Virus record (IMG/VR): IMGVR_UViG_3300042397_001835
Coordinates: 1 to 28,149 of that record
Source of the DNA: a virus
Strand: one strand, 5' to 3'
Length of the DNA: 28,149 nt
Shown: piece after piece, positions 4,651 through 28,149 of the stretch
Layout: the number at the start of each line of letters is the position of its first letter
Position numbering within the stretch: the first letter of the stretch is position 1
The notes under the pieces: generated by a model
Told to the model about the DNA's origin: nothing
Database searches by the model: none
What the model saw: the letters and a program-made list of their open reading frames with translations, nothing else
Made by a program: the position numbers and the translations under genes

Positions 4651-4749
4651 TGGCACAGCCCCTCGGAATCGAACCGAGCCAGATGGTTTTGGAGACCTTC
4701 TCGCCGCCTTGGAACATTGGACTGCTAAATTGGTTCCCGGCTGGGCTGA
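4651..4749 (-). tRNA. tRNA-Trp(CCA)-like element with oversized D-arm
   Basis: On the minus strand the 3' half is tRNA-like: a T-arm CTCGG-TTCGATT-CCGAG, acceptor strand GGGCTGT, discriminator G and an encoded CCA. A loop CTCCAAA, as in bacterial tRNA-Trp with anticodon CCA, sits on a stem AGAAGGT/ACCATCT with one A-A mismatch. The best 5' acceptor strand, TCAGCCC, pairs in six of seven positions, making the molecule 99 bases. The excess lies in the D-arm: GCCG/CGGC pairs, with an inner GGAAC/GTTCC stem around a 17-base loop. It could be a real divergent tRNA, a tRNA-like RNA or a decayed tRNA. Its place inside the late operon, same strand as portal, is unusual. Confidence 0.5.
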
Positions 4750-23373: not shown

Positions 23374-23386
23374 GAACTCAAGGGGA

Positions 23387-23393
23387 TGTCAAA
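23387..23393 (-). promoter_or_regulatory. TTTGACA motif (N13 to GTG 23373)
   Basis: Minus-strand TTTGACA exactly 13 bases before the GTG of the tail fibre gene. The fixed spacing to a non-ATG start suggests a link to translation start rather than chance. Confidence 0.6.
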
Positions 23394-23403
23394 ACACTGA
23401 GAC

Positions 23404-23470
23404 TCACCATGAAGAGCATGGAGAACATGAAGAGAGGAAATTCACCATGAAGAGCATGAAGAACATGAAG
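23404..23470. repeat. Two direct 29-base period-9 repeats (CATGAAGAGCATG type)
   Basis: Copies at 23404-23432 and 23442-23470 are almost identical (TCACCATGAAGAGCATGGAG... versus ...GAAG...), 38 bases apart start to start. They are made of 9-base units and match the 20728-20756 arm. They fill the gap between the glycosyltransferase stop and the TTTGACA of the fibre gene. Confidence 0.75.
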
Positions 23471-23478
23471 GTGGAGAC

Positions 23479-24486
23479 TTAGGCCGGGACAAAGGGCTGA
23501 GTCCTGACCCGGAGGTGGCCACGGCATTCCCCTTCCTGCTCGTGATAGGCCCGATGGTGGAGGATCTCCTGTTTGCCGGGTTGCCGCTTGATGTGATCGC
23601 AGGCGACATGGGGGACGCAGGCGATCCTGAGTCCCGCCGGGTGCCATCGTGACCAGCAGAGAAAGAGATCCTGAGTGCCCCTGCCGTCATAGCCGCAGAA
23701 GTCGGCATGGGCCAAGGCCGCCTTGGAAAGCAGGGTGCAGCCGAGTCCGCACCAGTCTGAGGGGACGACTGCCCCGTGACCGATCCCGGGATAGGCAAAG
23801 TCCATCCAGCCGCGACGCCTCCATCCATGCTTTGCGGTGACCGACCAGATGTTCCCATCCGGAGGAGAGGATTTCACCCGTTCCATGAGCCGACCCATCC
23901 GCTTCTGTTCCTTCTCGGAAGTGGCAGAGCGCAGCCGTTCTTCGCATTTCTCAAGCAGGAGTTTTAGCCGGGGCTTCAGCTTGCGCTCTTTCGGCAGGAA
24001 GTCCTCAGCGATCTGGTGACGATGATCACCGAATCCTCCCAAGAAGAGTCCGTTCGGGTAGGTGGCGGCGGCGATGTCATAGTGAGGCGAGCCGTCGGCC
24101 TGTGGCATGGCAAGCGTCCACTCCAACACACGGAGGGAATTGGCGGTCGGGATCGTGTCACTCTCTACCGACCAGCAGATCGAGGCGCGGATCTTGCGGG
24201 CAAAGGCGAAGGCCGATCCCTGAAGCTGGGCGATCCTCAGCTGGGCCTCCTCCTTGTAGTTCGTCGAGGTGTCGTCCGGGATGTGGTGCTTCAGCACGGA
24301 GACCTTCCACCCTTCAGGCAGTTCAGACTTGGCAAGCTCTGCGGCGGCTGTCGCCTCCTTGCTCTCGTCCGTGGCGAAGATGAAGTGGGCATCCTCGTGG
24401 TGAGCGGCTGCGGCGGCAATGGCCCGAATGCACTGGGGCCAAGCGTGGAGGTAGGTGCGGGTGGCCGAGACGGCGATGGCGATCAT
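23479..24486 (-). CDS. Glycosyltransferase-like protein (GT-A type)
   Basis: This 335-residue protein starts at ATG 24486 (MIAIAVSATRTYLHAWPQCI). A first beta strand with helix, then HFIFATDESKEA, and an acidic SVESDTIP (E108, D110) fit the nucleotide-sugar and metal site (DxD-like) of GT-A enzymes. A later GLGCTLLSKAALAHADFCGY with YDGRGTQDLFLCW fits the acceptor-side region common in family 2-like enzymes. The 121-residue upstream extension is Pro/Arg-rich, overlaps the tail gene and is not believed. It lies between two tail genes, so the acceptor may be a tail protein or a host surface sugar. Confidence 0.72.
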   Translation of the reverse strand: MIAIAVSATRTYLHAWPQCIRAIAAAAAHHEDAHFIFATDESKEATAAAELAKSELPEGWKVSVLKHHIPDDTSTNYKEEAQLRIAQLQGSAFAFARKIRASICWSVESDTIPTANSLRVLEWTLAMPQADGSPHYDIAAATYPNGLFLGGFGDHRHQIAEDFLPKERKLKPRLKLLLEKCEERLRSATSEKEQKRMGRLMERVKSSPPDGNIWSVTAKHGWRRRGWMDFAYPGIGHGAVVPSDWCGLGCTLLSKAALAHADFCGYDGRGTQDLFLCWSRWHPAGLRIACVPHVACDHIKRQPGKQEILHHRAYHEQEGECRGHLRVRTQPFVPA

Positions 24487-24505
24487 TTCGGAATGTGGGT
24501 TGGTC

Positions 24506-26131
24506 TCAGTAGCCGGGGGTGACCGACCAAGTGAAGACTGCGGGGGATAGAGGTGGCTGGATCGGCATGGGGGTGAGTTCCTGCAAAGGGTTCGCTCCGA
24601 TGATGGGAGAGGGCAACGCCTGCGGGGCTGTTCTGAACTGGGTGGCCGATACCGAGGGGCCGGTCGAGGAGAGGATCTGGCCCGGGTAGAGCGAGGTTCC
24701 GGTGGAGGAGCCGACCGCTGTCCGGTAAATCCCGGCAGGGAGACCGGCCTGCCACGACTGCCCGGCGGCAAGCTGGCTGGAACTGAAGGTGCTGCTCGGT
24801 CCAAAGGCTGGCACTTTCCAGAGTGTCGTGGTGGCACCTCCCGTGGCAAAGGTGACAGGCGTCCCGGTGCCCGTGGTCAATCCGGTCGCAGGAGGCTCGA
24901 TCACCGGGGCGTATCGGCCAGACTGACCGAACTGGGCGATGGAGATCCCGCTGACCGATGGGTTTGCGGAAAGTGTCGCGCCTGCCGAGGTGCCGCTGTC
25001 GGTGAAGAGGGCCATCCGCTCCTGTGGGTAGCTGAAGCCTGCACTCGGCACAGGGCCAGAGCCGATGGCATAGAAGCTGGAAGGCGGCGCGGCTGTTGTC
25101 AGAAGCCGGGTCTCGACCACCGTTCCATTCGTGTCGCCCGTGTTCACCGGGGCCGCTGCGATCACGCTCCGGGTTGAGGAGGTCAGCACATAGGGCTGGG
25201 CAAAGGTCTGGAACCCTCCCCAGATTGGCAGGACGGCAGTCGATAGGGAGGTCGTGACCACAGGCACCGAGGAGGTGGAGGAGACATGGTATCCCACCTC
25301 GCTGGTCTCGACCCAGCTTGAGATGGTCGAGCTGACAGACCACCCGGTCGTGATGTCCTCACCGGCACGGAGTCCGTCCATCGTGGAGTTCGGGAAGCTC
25401 GAAAGCTGATCCGGTTCGGTGTAGTAGAGGACATCCATCTGGGCCTCCTGATAGGTTGTCACCGCAAAGTAGGTGACCGAGATGGTGGCAGAATTGGCCG
25501 GGGACGTGACATACGGGACGGTGTAGCTGACCACATTCACCGATCCCGCCTGAGAGTAGCTGGAGGATGTCGTGCCTGCCGCAGTCGTGGCGACGGGCGC
25601 AGGCGATGAAGCCGTCGCCCCCACAAAGAAGGCCCCGGGGCCGTAAAATCCCGAGGCCGAGTTGATGAAGGTGTCATAGACCGTGGACTGGCCCCTTGAC
25701 CATGTGAGGGCGGTCGTGCCGGGGCCTGCCACTGAGGTCGTGGCTGACGTTCCGGAGGTGGTGCTCGTCACCGAACTCGTTGTCGTGACCACGGTGGTCG
25801 TCGGGTAGGTGGAGGTGCCCGATGATCCAGCCGTTGTCGTGAGCACCCGGGGGGCCAAGGTCGTGCCGCCGAACATCCCTCCGAGAGCAGTCGATGAGGC
25901 CACGGTGGCCGTTGTCACCGTGATGGCCGCACTGGCTCCTGTCGTGACAAAACTGGAGGAGAGAGCCGCTGAGGCTGTGGCGGGTTCGTTGTAGCCCGAG
26001 GCGCTGGCGCTAGAGCTTGGAACATTCGCGATGCTTGTTCCATCGATGAATGAATAAGAGGGAGTCGTGACCGTCTGCCTCCACGATCCGACCGGCACCG
26101 TGACCGTGCGCGGGATCACCCAAGAGTTCAT
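24506..26131 (-). CDS. Ser/Thr-rich tail protein
   Basis: This 541-residue protein begins MNSWVIPRTVTVPVGSWRQT. It is extremely rich in Ser, Thr, Ala, Val and Gly, with Thr/Ser runs (TTTVVTTTSSVTSTTSGTSA), almost no Lys and no Cys seen. Such low-complexity beta-rich sequence suits an extended tail or baseplate structure. The neighbour downstream is a glycosyltransferase, so its Ser/Thr could be glycosylated. It overlaps the preceding tail gene by four bases. No family is recognised. Confidence 0.78.
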   Translation of the reverse strand: MNSWVIPRTVTVPVGSWRQTVTTPSYSFIDGTSIANVPSSSASASGYNEPATASAALSSSFVTTGASAAITVTTATVASSTALGGMFGGTTLAPRVLTTTAGSSGTSTYPTTTVVTTTSSVTSTTSGTSATTSVAGPGTTALTWSRGQSTVYDTFINSASGFYGPGAFFVGATASSPAPVATTAAGTTSSSYSQAGSVNVVSYTVPYVTSPANSATISVTYFAVTTYQEAQMDVLYYTEPDQLSSFPNSTMDGLRAGEDITTGWSVSSTISSWVETSEVGYHVSSTSSVPVVTTSLSTAVLPIWGGFQTFAQPYVLTSSTRSVIAAAPVNTGDTNGTVVETRLLTTAAPPSSFYAIGSGPVPSAGFSYPQERMALFTDSGTSAGATLSANPSVSGISIAQFGQSGRYAPVIEPPATGLTTGTGTPVTFATGGATTTLWKVPAFGPSSTFSSSQLAAGQSWQAGLPAGIYRTAVGSSTGTSLYPGQILSSTGPSVSATQFRTAPQALPSPIIGANPLQELTPMPIQPPLSPAVFTWSVTPGY

Positions 26132-26724
26132 GAGAAGATCCAGTTCCAGTATGAGGTGTAGGGAAGCTCAAAGGGGCCTGCTCCCGTCCTGCTTGTCCGG
26201 TAGCTTTCAACCGGGACGGCAGAGATATTCTTCTTCAGGACATTGAAATAGGTGCCGTTCACGCTGACGCCGATCAACACCTTGAACGAGGTGGGTGGCG
26301 CATCTGCCGCTGCCGTTGCCATTGCTGGCTGGGTGGAGCCGCTTGAGATCGTGCAGGAGGAGACTGATCCCGCCGTCGTGGTGGCATCGACCCAGAACCA
26401 TTTGGTGTCGGTCAAGGGAGCCGTGAAGTCGGTGAAGATATTGGATGGCATGACCCCGCCGACCGAGCCGGGCTGGAACTTGAAGGTGATCGTCCCTGAT
26501 ATCTGCGAGGTTACAATCTGATCCCACTGAGACTCAACCGGCGCGGTCGGACCACCGCCTCCATTGACCACCAGCGACGAGCCCCCCGGGCCGTTCTTCA
26601 ACGTGTAGCCGACGCCAGGCTGGAGCGTGACCTCGCGGAAATTATCCTCGATCACACGCGCCACGGCCTCCCACTGAGGCGGGGTCAGGATTCCCGACTT
26701 GCTGAGTCTTGGTAGCCGCTTCAT
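26128..26724 (-). CDS. Tail-associated protein, 198 residues
   Basis: It starts at ATG 26724 (MKRLPRLSKSGILTPPQWEA). The N-terminal helix with VARVIEDNFREV and the following VTLQPGVGYTLKNGPGGSSL resemble openings of phage tail or adaptor proteins. The rest is beta-type, rich in Ser and Thr. A longer frame upstream overlaps the next gene and is not believed. It is coupled (ATGA) to the Ser/Thr-rich gene, suggesting they act together in the tail tip. Confidence 0.7.
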   Translation of the reverse strand: MKRLPRLSKSGILTPPQWEAVARVIEDNFREVTLQPGVGYTLKNGPGGSSLVVNGGGGPTAPVESQWDQIVTSQISGTITFKFQPGSVGGVMPSNIFTDFTAPLTDTKWFWVDATTTAGSVSSCTISSGSTQPAMATAAADAPPTSFKVLIGVSVNGTYFNVLKKNISAVPVESYRTSRTGAGPFELPYTSYWNWIFS

Positions 26725-26728
26725 GGCG

Positions 26729-27388
26729 CTATCCGTAGAGGTCGTTGTCCCAACCGGCCTTTCCGCTGGCGCGGTATTCCCTGCTGATCCTCCATTTCCC
26801 ATTGGCCAGCGCCGAGAAGTTACAACCTGAAAAAAGCCAGTTGCCTCCGGACGGGAGGGTCGGTGCGTTGCTCAGTCCGGTAGCCTTCTTTCCCAAGTTC
26901 GTCAGGTCAGGGACATTCGACTCGTCTGCCGTGATCGTCAGCGTGATGGTCGGAGCGAAGAAGGTTTCTATACCTTTTAAGATGAAGGAGGCATACTTCG
27001 CCAACCCATCCGTGCCGACTGCATAGGTCTTCCAGAGTGTCGGGTCGGTCTCGGCTTTCTTGATCTTGTCCTTGGCCGTGTCATCCAGAACCCATGCACC
27101 ACCTGCCTGGAAGGAGCCGAAGGTGATCAGTGGCTCTGTGGAGACGGAGGTGTGGCACTCGTAGTTGTAGTTGCCCGTGCTGGTTGGCGGCGAGCCTCCT
27201 GTCCCCGTGGAGTCGCCGATGTCCTTGTAGGTGACCCGGAAGGTTCCGTTCTCCTGCGACTTAGTGGCATCGACCGCAGTGGCCGGGATTGTTGGGAATT
27301 GGGTCAGGTTCTCAAGCGTCGTCGTGGTGACGAAGTTTCCAATCTTGGAATCCCATGTGGCTGATTTGGATACAATCGTGTCGGGCAT
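26729..27388 (-). CDS. Tail protein, 219 residues
   Basis: It begins MPDTIVSKSATWDSKIGNFV, mainly beta-type, with two Cys (YECHTS, SGCNFS). It follows the tape-measure gene directly, where siphoviruses encode distal tail or tail-tip proteins. The C-terminus (ANGKWRISREYRASGKAGWD) is a charged, Trp-containing segment. The family is not recognised; the tail role is from order. Confidence 0.7.
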   Translation of the reverse strand: MPDTIVSKSATWDSKIGNFVTTTTLENLTQFPTIPATAVDATKSQENGTFRVTYKDIGDSTGTGGSPPTSTGNYNYECHTSVSTEPLITFGSFQAGGAWVLDDTAKDKIKKAETDPTLWKTYAVGTDGLAKYASFILKGIETFFAPTITLTITADESNVPDLTNLGKKATGLSNAPTLPSGGNWLFSGCNFSALANGKWRISREYRASGKAGWDNDLYG

Positions 27389-27394
27389 AAAAGG

Positions 27395-28149
27395 CTAGGC
27401 GGTAGAGGCTGAAAACGCGGCACCACCGAATGAGTTGGCGATGCCTTGGTTTATCTGCTGAAGCAGTGCTGTCTGCCTCTTGTTCTCCTCAAGGATGGGA
27501 TTGCTCGATGGACCGACGGCGAACCCGCCGCCGCCGACCTTAGCAAGGCTGTCGGCGATGATGGACTGCTTGGCACCCATGCCGATGTCCGAGGCGTTGA
27601 AGAGGCCGGTCTTCTTCTGGAGCGATGCCTTGTCACGGGCGTCCTGGTTGCTCTTCTCCAGGGACTGGTAGATCGAGTCGGTCAGGCTCTGAAGCTCTTG
27701 TTCACTACCGGAACCGAAGAGATCGAAGTTTTTGAACTTCCTTGCAAAGTCGGAAGTGGCAAAGCCAACTGCCTCGGCCACTTGGTCCCTGAAGTTGTCG
27801 TTGACCCTCTTGATCTTGTCGAAGCCGCTCGACCCCTGCTGCATGGCGAGGTTGCGAAACTCGGAAGCCTTCTGGTCAATCGCGTCTGCCCCCCTGCCGA
27901 TAGAACCACCGATGAGAGGGATATTCCTCATCTCATTGACCAGTGAGGCGATCCCCCCCAGCAGTCCCGCATTGAAGGAGTTCACAAACGACATGAGCGT
28001 GTCGTAAAGCCCTGTCCAGAAACTGGTCTCGTTGATTGCAGCAAGGCCCGATGTGAAGACGGTGGTGGCAATCGCCATCTGCGCTGGGATCGATCCGAAC
28101 AGGGCGTAGAGAGACCCGCCAAGAAAATTGATAATGCGCTCAAAGGCCA
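27395..28149 (-). CDS. Tape-measure protein, C-terminal part (cut by window edge)
   Basis: The frame is open to the right edge, 250 residues up to the stop at 27395. It contains hydrophobic stretches (LGGSLYALFGSIPAQMAIAT, SFNAGLLGGIASLVNEMR and PLIGGSIGRGADAIDQK) and helical charged regions (QELQSLTDSIYQSLEKSNQD), then a Gly-rich GGGGFAVGPSSN and a final helix. Hydrophobic Gly/Ala segments within a helical protein are typical of tail-length tape-measure proteins, which set tail length and help DNA enter the cell. The N-terminal portion is not in the window. An internal ATG at 28078 is not a real start. Confidence 0.72.
   Translation of the reverse strand, partial: AFERIINFLGGSLYALFGSIPAQMAIATTVFTSGLAAINETSFWTGLYDTLMSFVNSFNAGLLGGIASLVNEMRNIPLIGGSIGRGADAIDQKASEFRNLAMQQGSSGFDKIKRVNDNFRDQVAEAVGFATSDFARKFKNFDLFGSGSEQELQSLTDSIYQSLEKSNQDARDKASLQKKTGLFNASDIGMGAKQSIIADSLAKVGGGGFAVGPSSNPILEENKRQTALLQQINQGIANSFGGAAFSASTA

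Follow-up and report, generated by a model that had tools for sequence, protein, structure and literature searches.

A glycosyltransferase gene paired with a hypervariable Ser/Thr-rich gene in phage tail modules: a probable virion-glycosylation cassette

The IMG/VR virus record IMGVR_UViG_3300042397_001835 (28,149 bp, analysed over its entire length and referred to here as the window) carries in its tail module a gene for a GT-A-like glycosyltransferase directly beside a gene for a protein rich in serine and threonine (Ser/Thr-rich protein). The two genes are best read as a mobile cassette, carried by the phage, for O-glycosylation of the hypervariable tail protein that it encodes; the enzyme probably glycosylates the product of the adjacent gene, with a glycan chemistry that we infer. 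A sequence-only reading of this DNA had already described the order Ser/Thr-rich gene, enzyme gene and fibre gene, with which the coordinates, the composition and the PHROG fibre matches agreed. It had suggested O-glycosylation of the tail, with alteration of host surface sugar as the alternative, and the first interpretation is the one better supported by the co-occurrence of the genes in relatives and by the GT-A structure of the enzyme.

The assignment of the enzyme as a GT-A glycosyltransferase is well supported, being predicted from its fold, from a motif and from the Pfam matches of its relatives. Compared with the PDB, the AlphaFold model (pLDDT 78, pTM 0.73) gave 138 matches at E ≤ 0.001, the top ones being GT-A enzymes, so that structure prediction confirmed the GT-A likeness claimed earlier. 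The best Foldseek match (E 1e-9) was to the collagen galactosyltransferase COLGALT1, at about 13% identity and a query TM of about 0.47, and the fold also resembled that of viral glycosyltransferases. Residues V107, E108 and D110 (V-E-x-D) were invariant in 22 of 22 aligned members of the enzyme family, thus providing the DxD-type metal/nucleotide motif of GT-A enzymes, and a C-terminal D-H pair (D297-H298) was likewise invariant, at a position that we take to fit the C-terminal metal-binding His of these enzymes. Ten of the 22 members matched the GT2-like Pfam family Glyco_tranf_2_3 (best 2.2e-5). The window enzyme itself gave no family in Pfam, PHROGs or NCBIfam library scans, and a PDB sequence search returned nothing relevant for either the enzyme or the Ser/Thr-rich protein. 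The enzyme is predicted to be a soluble, single-domain protein. Its listed open reading frame (ORF) started at TTG 24849 and overlapped the Ser/Thr-rich gene; because all relatives aligned only from ATG 24486, this ATG was taken as the true start, which leaves a 335-amino-acid (aa) enzyme and a gap of 19 nt after the stop of the Ser/Thr-rich gene.

The Ser/Thr-rich protein of the window (541 aa) contained 16.8% Thr and 16.1% Ser (33% Ser plus Thr, S+T) and 0.2% Lys, and had the highest S+T content among the window ORFs of at least 300 aa. The Ser and Thr runs previously noticed in it, which include a region at about residues 95-135, were borne out: clustering into runs of three or more was in modest excess for the window protein (66 vs. 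44.5 ± 9 in shuffled sequences) and in strong excess over 46 non-redundant relatives (2384 vs. 1754 ± 46). Among the non-redundant proteins the three most enriched residues were Thr (2.1-fold), Tyr (2.1-fold) and Ser (1.6-fold), and Lys was the most depleted one (0.38-fold). N-linked glycosylation was considered and rejected, N-x-S/T sequons being at chance level (340 vs. 350 expected). Enrichment of Thr and Ser with sequons at chance therefore fits O-linked rather than N-linked modification. The earlier designation of this product as a tail protein stands by position in the tail module only, family scans of the window proteins having recognised it in no library. A broad alignment of the Ser/Thr-rich proteins (mean identity 21%) was too divergent for use.

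Relatives of the enzyme were encoded in at least 122 IMG/VR stretches, and no match was found among 50,697 GenBank phage records. Two further relatives came from GTDB, each in a metagenome-assembled genome (MAG) and each with the Ser/Thr-rich gene beside it; one MAG is labelled Chthoniobacter flavus (72%) and the other Betaproteobacteria (40%). Because of MAG binning, these labels are weak host hints, of which the Chthoniobacter contig (L085) offers the best lead. Co-occurrence was counted at 102 loci, 95 with a complete neighbour gene and seven interrupted by contig ends. In 95 of the 95 complete loci the immediate neighbour of the enzyme measured 436-945 aa and contained 21.5-39.4% S+T, and in 92 it had the highest S+T content among the ORFs of at least 300 aa of its locus, the remaining ORFs of this size showing a median of 13.1% and a 95th percentile of 23.3%. 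A partial neighbour with 24-26% S+T was present at three of the seven contig-end loci. The sequence-only reading had named co-occurrence in relatives as a check, and confinement of the enzyme to phages lacking the Ser/Thr-rich gene as the contrary outcome; the opposite of the latter was seen and, together with the joint loss described below, the result speaks strongly in favour of a link. The enzymes were mostly 60-95% identical to that of the window. In contrast with this conservation, the Ser/Thr-rich proteins of 47 representatives (below 90% enzyme identity) fell into 37 groups unconnected by BLASTP. In one clade (L034-L048), and separately in L189/L201, the two genes were convergent and adjacency was kept. 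Portals among 45 scanned records were of lambda type in 30 and of SU10 type in five, indicating that the gene pair has moved between phage lineages.

Enzyme-less phages were found by searching with the gene immediately upstream of the Ser/Thr-rich gene. In at least 12 of them the gene at the Ser/Thr-rich position encoded 153-378 aa with 12-21% S+T. One of these phages, L122, was 80% identical to the window in its capsid protein, 76% in a portal fragment and 74% in the upstream tail gene. Trees of the upstream gene resolved three independent joint switches of enzyme and Ser/Thr-rich gene (3/3 concordant). The upstream 198-aa protein was 79-84% identical to those of the sisters L121 and L122 over its first 56 aa and only 24% over the remainder, and a similar break in identity occurred in a second clade. 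The drop was also found among some enzyme-bearing relatives, with 83% vs. 27% in the case of L110, which makes variability a general feature of the C-terminal part. From this pattern of identity we propose that the upstream protein may act as an adaptor and that its C-terminal portion is exchanged with the cassette. The two genes stay linked when inverted and when placed on another backbone, and they are lost jointly in sister phages; this behaviour points to a virion substrate more than to alteration of the host surface.

A further sugar-related or glycosyltransferase-like gene was located within 8 kb of the enzyme in 24 of the 47 representatives; the window had none of these accessory sugar genes within that distance. 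The commonest was an FdtA/RmlC-type cupin (Pfam PF14667, PF05523 and PF00908), adjacent or overlapping in most loci possessing it; relatives of the L046 and L034 type are examples. One clade has the cupin gene upstream and another has it downstream, and it was retained beside enzymes only 37-40% identical to that of the window. GT4 glycosyltransferases, DUF3431 proteins, a 324-330-aa enzyme of no known family and a sulfotransferase made up the other accessory genes. The 324-330-aa product, which had no confident Pfam family, was encoded directly 3' of the glycosyltransferase (L017 9046-10020, L021 9095-10087, L096 9045-10034 and L099 9055-10041); it had weak similarity to a longer ORF of L011-L013 (L011 8852-10519) and looked GT-A-like by eye, with an ELDSTP motif in L011. 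The DUF3431 gene (PF11913) lay between enzyme and cupin in the siphophage relatives L065, L070, L074 and L076 and was accompanied by GT4 in the SU10-like L005 and L007. In the betaproteobacterial MAG (L086 8897-11129) the distant enzyme (40%) was followed by genes for a nucleotidyltransferase-like protein and a sulfotransferase. Extra structural-module proteins with 35-51% Ser/Thr, some with poly-Ser/Asn repeats, were observed in SU10-like relatives (L005 2912-4635, L022 1118-2283) and are possible further acceptors.

Virion glycosylation has been documented on the capsid and tail tube of the mycobacteriophages Che8, Corndog and Myrna (Freeman et al. 2023, via PMC12363180, PMC11256854 and PMC12619734); the documented cases that we could find were limited to a few mycobacteriophages, and the proposed role was protection from antibodies. 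These cases agree with the previous description of phage-encoded virion glycosylation as rare but known. As in that system, where structural proteins of the phage are believed to receive sugar from a glycosyltransferase that the phage itself encodes, the window enzyme is phage-encoded, its gene being part of a tail operon on a contig that also carries terminase and portal genes. Che8 differs in that its three glycosyltransferases (gp108-110) are clustered at the genome end, whereas here the enzyme is tied to one hypervariable Ser/Thr-rich tail protein. In profile comparisons the window enzyme showed no sequence relationship with gp108, gp109 or gp110 of Che8 (hhalign probability about 1% or less), gp110 being a Glyco_transf_25 (GT25-type) protein. 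In view of this result, the likeness to the mycobacteriophage system probably concerns the way of working and need not extend to the enzyme family. The nearest fold, GT25/COLGALT1, also belongs to a protein-modifying GT-A enzyme, but the low identity and the placement of relatives in Glyco_tranf_2_3 by sequence libraries set the window enzyme apart from it. In bacterial adhesin loci (serine-rich repeat adhesins, flagellin) the gene of a Ser-rich acceptor is next to that of its glycosyltransferase; a dedicated enzyme gene adjoining that of a Ser/Thr-rich surface protein is common to both, although those are cellular surface systems and the present one is a phage virion tail module. Unlike in serotype-conversion (gtr) cassettes, the neighbours of the enzyme were tail genes, and no GtrA/GtrB match was found among the scanned window proteins. 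Virion glycosylation is thus already known, and this enzyme family with a linked putative acceptor looks new.

Several observations weigh against glycosylation of the neighbouring protein. Beside the most distant enzymes (37-42% identity) the neighbours were equally large, with only 18-21% S+T, although the L124 enzyme (41% identity) had a neighbour with 29%; Ser/Thr richness is therefore a strong tendency and not a law, and what stays strictly constant is a large hypervariable tail protein. Three independent switches do not suffice for a formal sign test. The enzyme-less L121 encoded a Ser/Thr-rich fibre (549 aa, 28%), so such fibres exist without the enzyme. Enrichment of Tyr and Phe equally suits a beta-rich fibre, whose composition the Ser/Thr richness could partly reflect, and for this reason composition alone is no proof. 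AlphaFold modelling of the Ser/Thr-rich protein with three sequences was uninformative (pLDDT 25).

Among the other explanations, it is unlikely, with a small but real chance, that a sugar on the host surface is what the enzyme changes, for superinfection exclusion or to alter a receptor, and that the Ser/Thr-rich protein is an unmodified adhesin matched to that surface. Adhesin-linked surface modification also predicts co-inheritance, and the cupin and GT4 genes near some copies resemble lipopolysaccharide or polysaccharide genes; however, the enzyme gene is located inside a tail operon, its predicted product is soluble and single-domain, neither a GtrA-type flippase nor any other polysaccharide gene turned up among the scanned window proteins, and the link concerns the composition of the neighbour, which remains Ser/Thr-rich while its sequence is replaced. 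We also give little credence to co-occurrence without biochemical coupling, that is, an exchangeable tail-tip module in which the two genes are adjacent but have separate roles. The small number of resolved switches, the co-movement of the C-terminal part of the upstream gene, so that a whole block is swapped, and the less striking S+T content in the most distant members are all compatible with it, whereas adjacency survives inverted orientation and unrelated backbones, and genes for sugar enzymes have collected at this position.

That the enzyme instead modifies a different component of the virion, be it capsid, tail tube or the collagen-like fibre downstream, and that its Ser/Thr-rich neighbour is incidental, appears improbable. 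Such an acceptor would suit the nearest fold, a collagen hydroxylysine galactosyltransferase, the collagen-like GPQGPQG fibres of several relatives and the acceptors known in mycobacteriophages, which are capsid and tail tube (PMC12363180). Nevertheless, in SU10-like and convergent groups the neighbour is the Ser/Thr-rich protein and not a fibre, collagen-like fibres are also present in the enzyme-less L121 and L122, and the Ser/Thr-rich protein is lost with the enzyme whereas fibre and capsid are not. Glucosylation of hypermodified phage DNA, for which phage glycosyltransferases are well known (PMC12619734), is very improbable here: the gene sits in a late tail operon, and the scanned proteins of this partial contig included no base-hypermodification gene, only a primase, a primase/helicase-like protein, a metallophosphoesterase, a lysin and the terminase.

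If the cassette glycosylates its tail protein, the enzyme would act in the host cytoplasm after synthesis and would transfer sugar from a sugar nucleotide of the host (or a phage-modified one) to hydroxyls of Ser and Thr, and perhaps of Tyr, in the product of the neighbouring gene. The tail tip or a side fibre of the virion would thereby be decorated with sugar, and the decorated protein may be attached to the tail through the C-terminal portion of the upstream protein. Least certain is the use of the sugars, which might lie in host binding or in protection of a disordered or beta-rich appendage; the tail-protein sequence could be free to drift because the sugars would carry the function. It is quite possible, though we put it forward tentatively, that this is a widespread, previously undescribed phage module, in which a conserved GT-A enzyme has a hypervariable, hydroxyl-rich, "mucin-like" tail protein as dedicated acceptor, and optional sugar-nucleotide enzymes and extra glycosyltransferases diversify the glycan. 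Phages would then carry variable sugar-coated tail adhesins analogous to glycosylated bacterial adhesins, and phage glycoproteins would be a general phenomenon (more than 100 environmental contigs, different virion backbones, natural enzyme-less sisters). This would be relevant to how some phage tail proteins can keep their function although their sequences diverge past recognition, and the loci offer ready-made gene pairs for two-gene co-expression.

Library scans of the window proteins identified a GpA-type large terminase, a lambda-type portal and capsid genes, and all named window genes (terminase, portal, capsid and tail module) were on the minus strand. The tail module ran from the end of a probable tape-measure gene through genes for the 219-aa, 198-aa and 541-aa Ser/Thr-rich proteins and the enzyme to the 773-aa fibre (Table 1). 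ORF calling was mechanical, and individual start sites, including a few long starts, may be wrong.

Table 1. Features of the tail module in the window
Feature	Position	Strand	Basis
Probable tape-measure gene, C-terminal part, running off the contig	27395..28147	-	Role suggested by size and position; product aligns with the C-terminus of 502-526-aa proteins at the equivalent place in sister phages L121/L122
Conserved 219-aa tail-module protein	26729..27388	-	74-75% identity to the gene at the equivalent place in enzyme-less sisters L121 and L122
198-aa upstream protein, proposed adaptor	26128..26724	-	First ~56 aa conserved; C-terminal remainder exchanged together with the cassette
Ser/Thr-rich hypervariable tail-module protein, 541 aa, proposed sugar acceptor	24506..26131	-	Composition; neighbour of the enzyme gene in relatives
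GT-A glycosyltransferase (predicted), 335 aa, ATG 24486	23479..24486	-	AlphaFold/Foldseek, motif, Pfam in relatives
E-S-D, residues 108-110, DxD-like metal/sugar-nucleotide motif	24157..24165	-	Alignment of enzyme family
D297-H298, invariant	23593..23598	-	Alignment of enzyme family
Tail fibre 3' of the cassette, 773 aa	21052..23373	-	PHROG tail/tail-fibre families (best 8.1e-10); Pfam PTR weak (0.003)

Between the enzyme and fibre genes (window 23385-23470) an imperfect tandem repeat of about 29 bp was observed, reading TTCATGTTCTTCATGCTCTTCATGGTGAA on the minus strand. The repeat had two copies in the window and one in L002, and its arrangement differed in L003. As a link to a host it was rejected, since it was missing from both MAGs encoding enzyme relatives. 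A tRNA-Trp gene (cca) was present at window 4651-4725, with the terminase gene on one side and the portal gene on the other.
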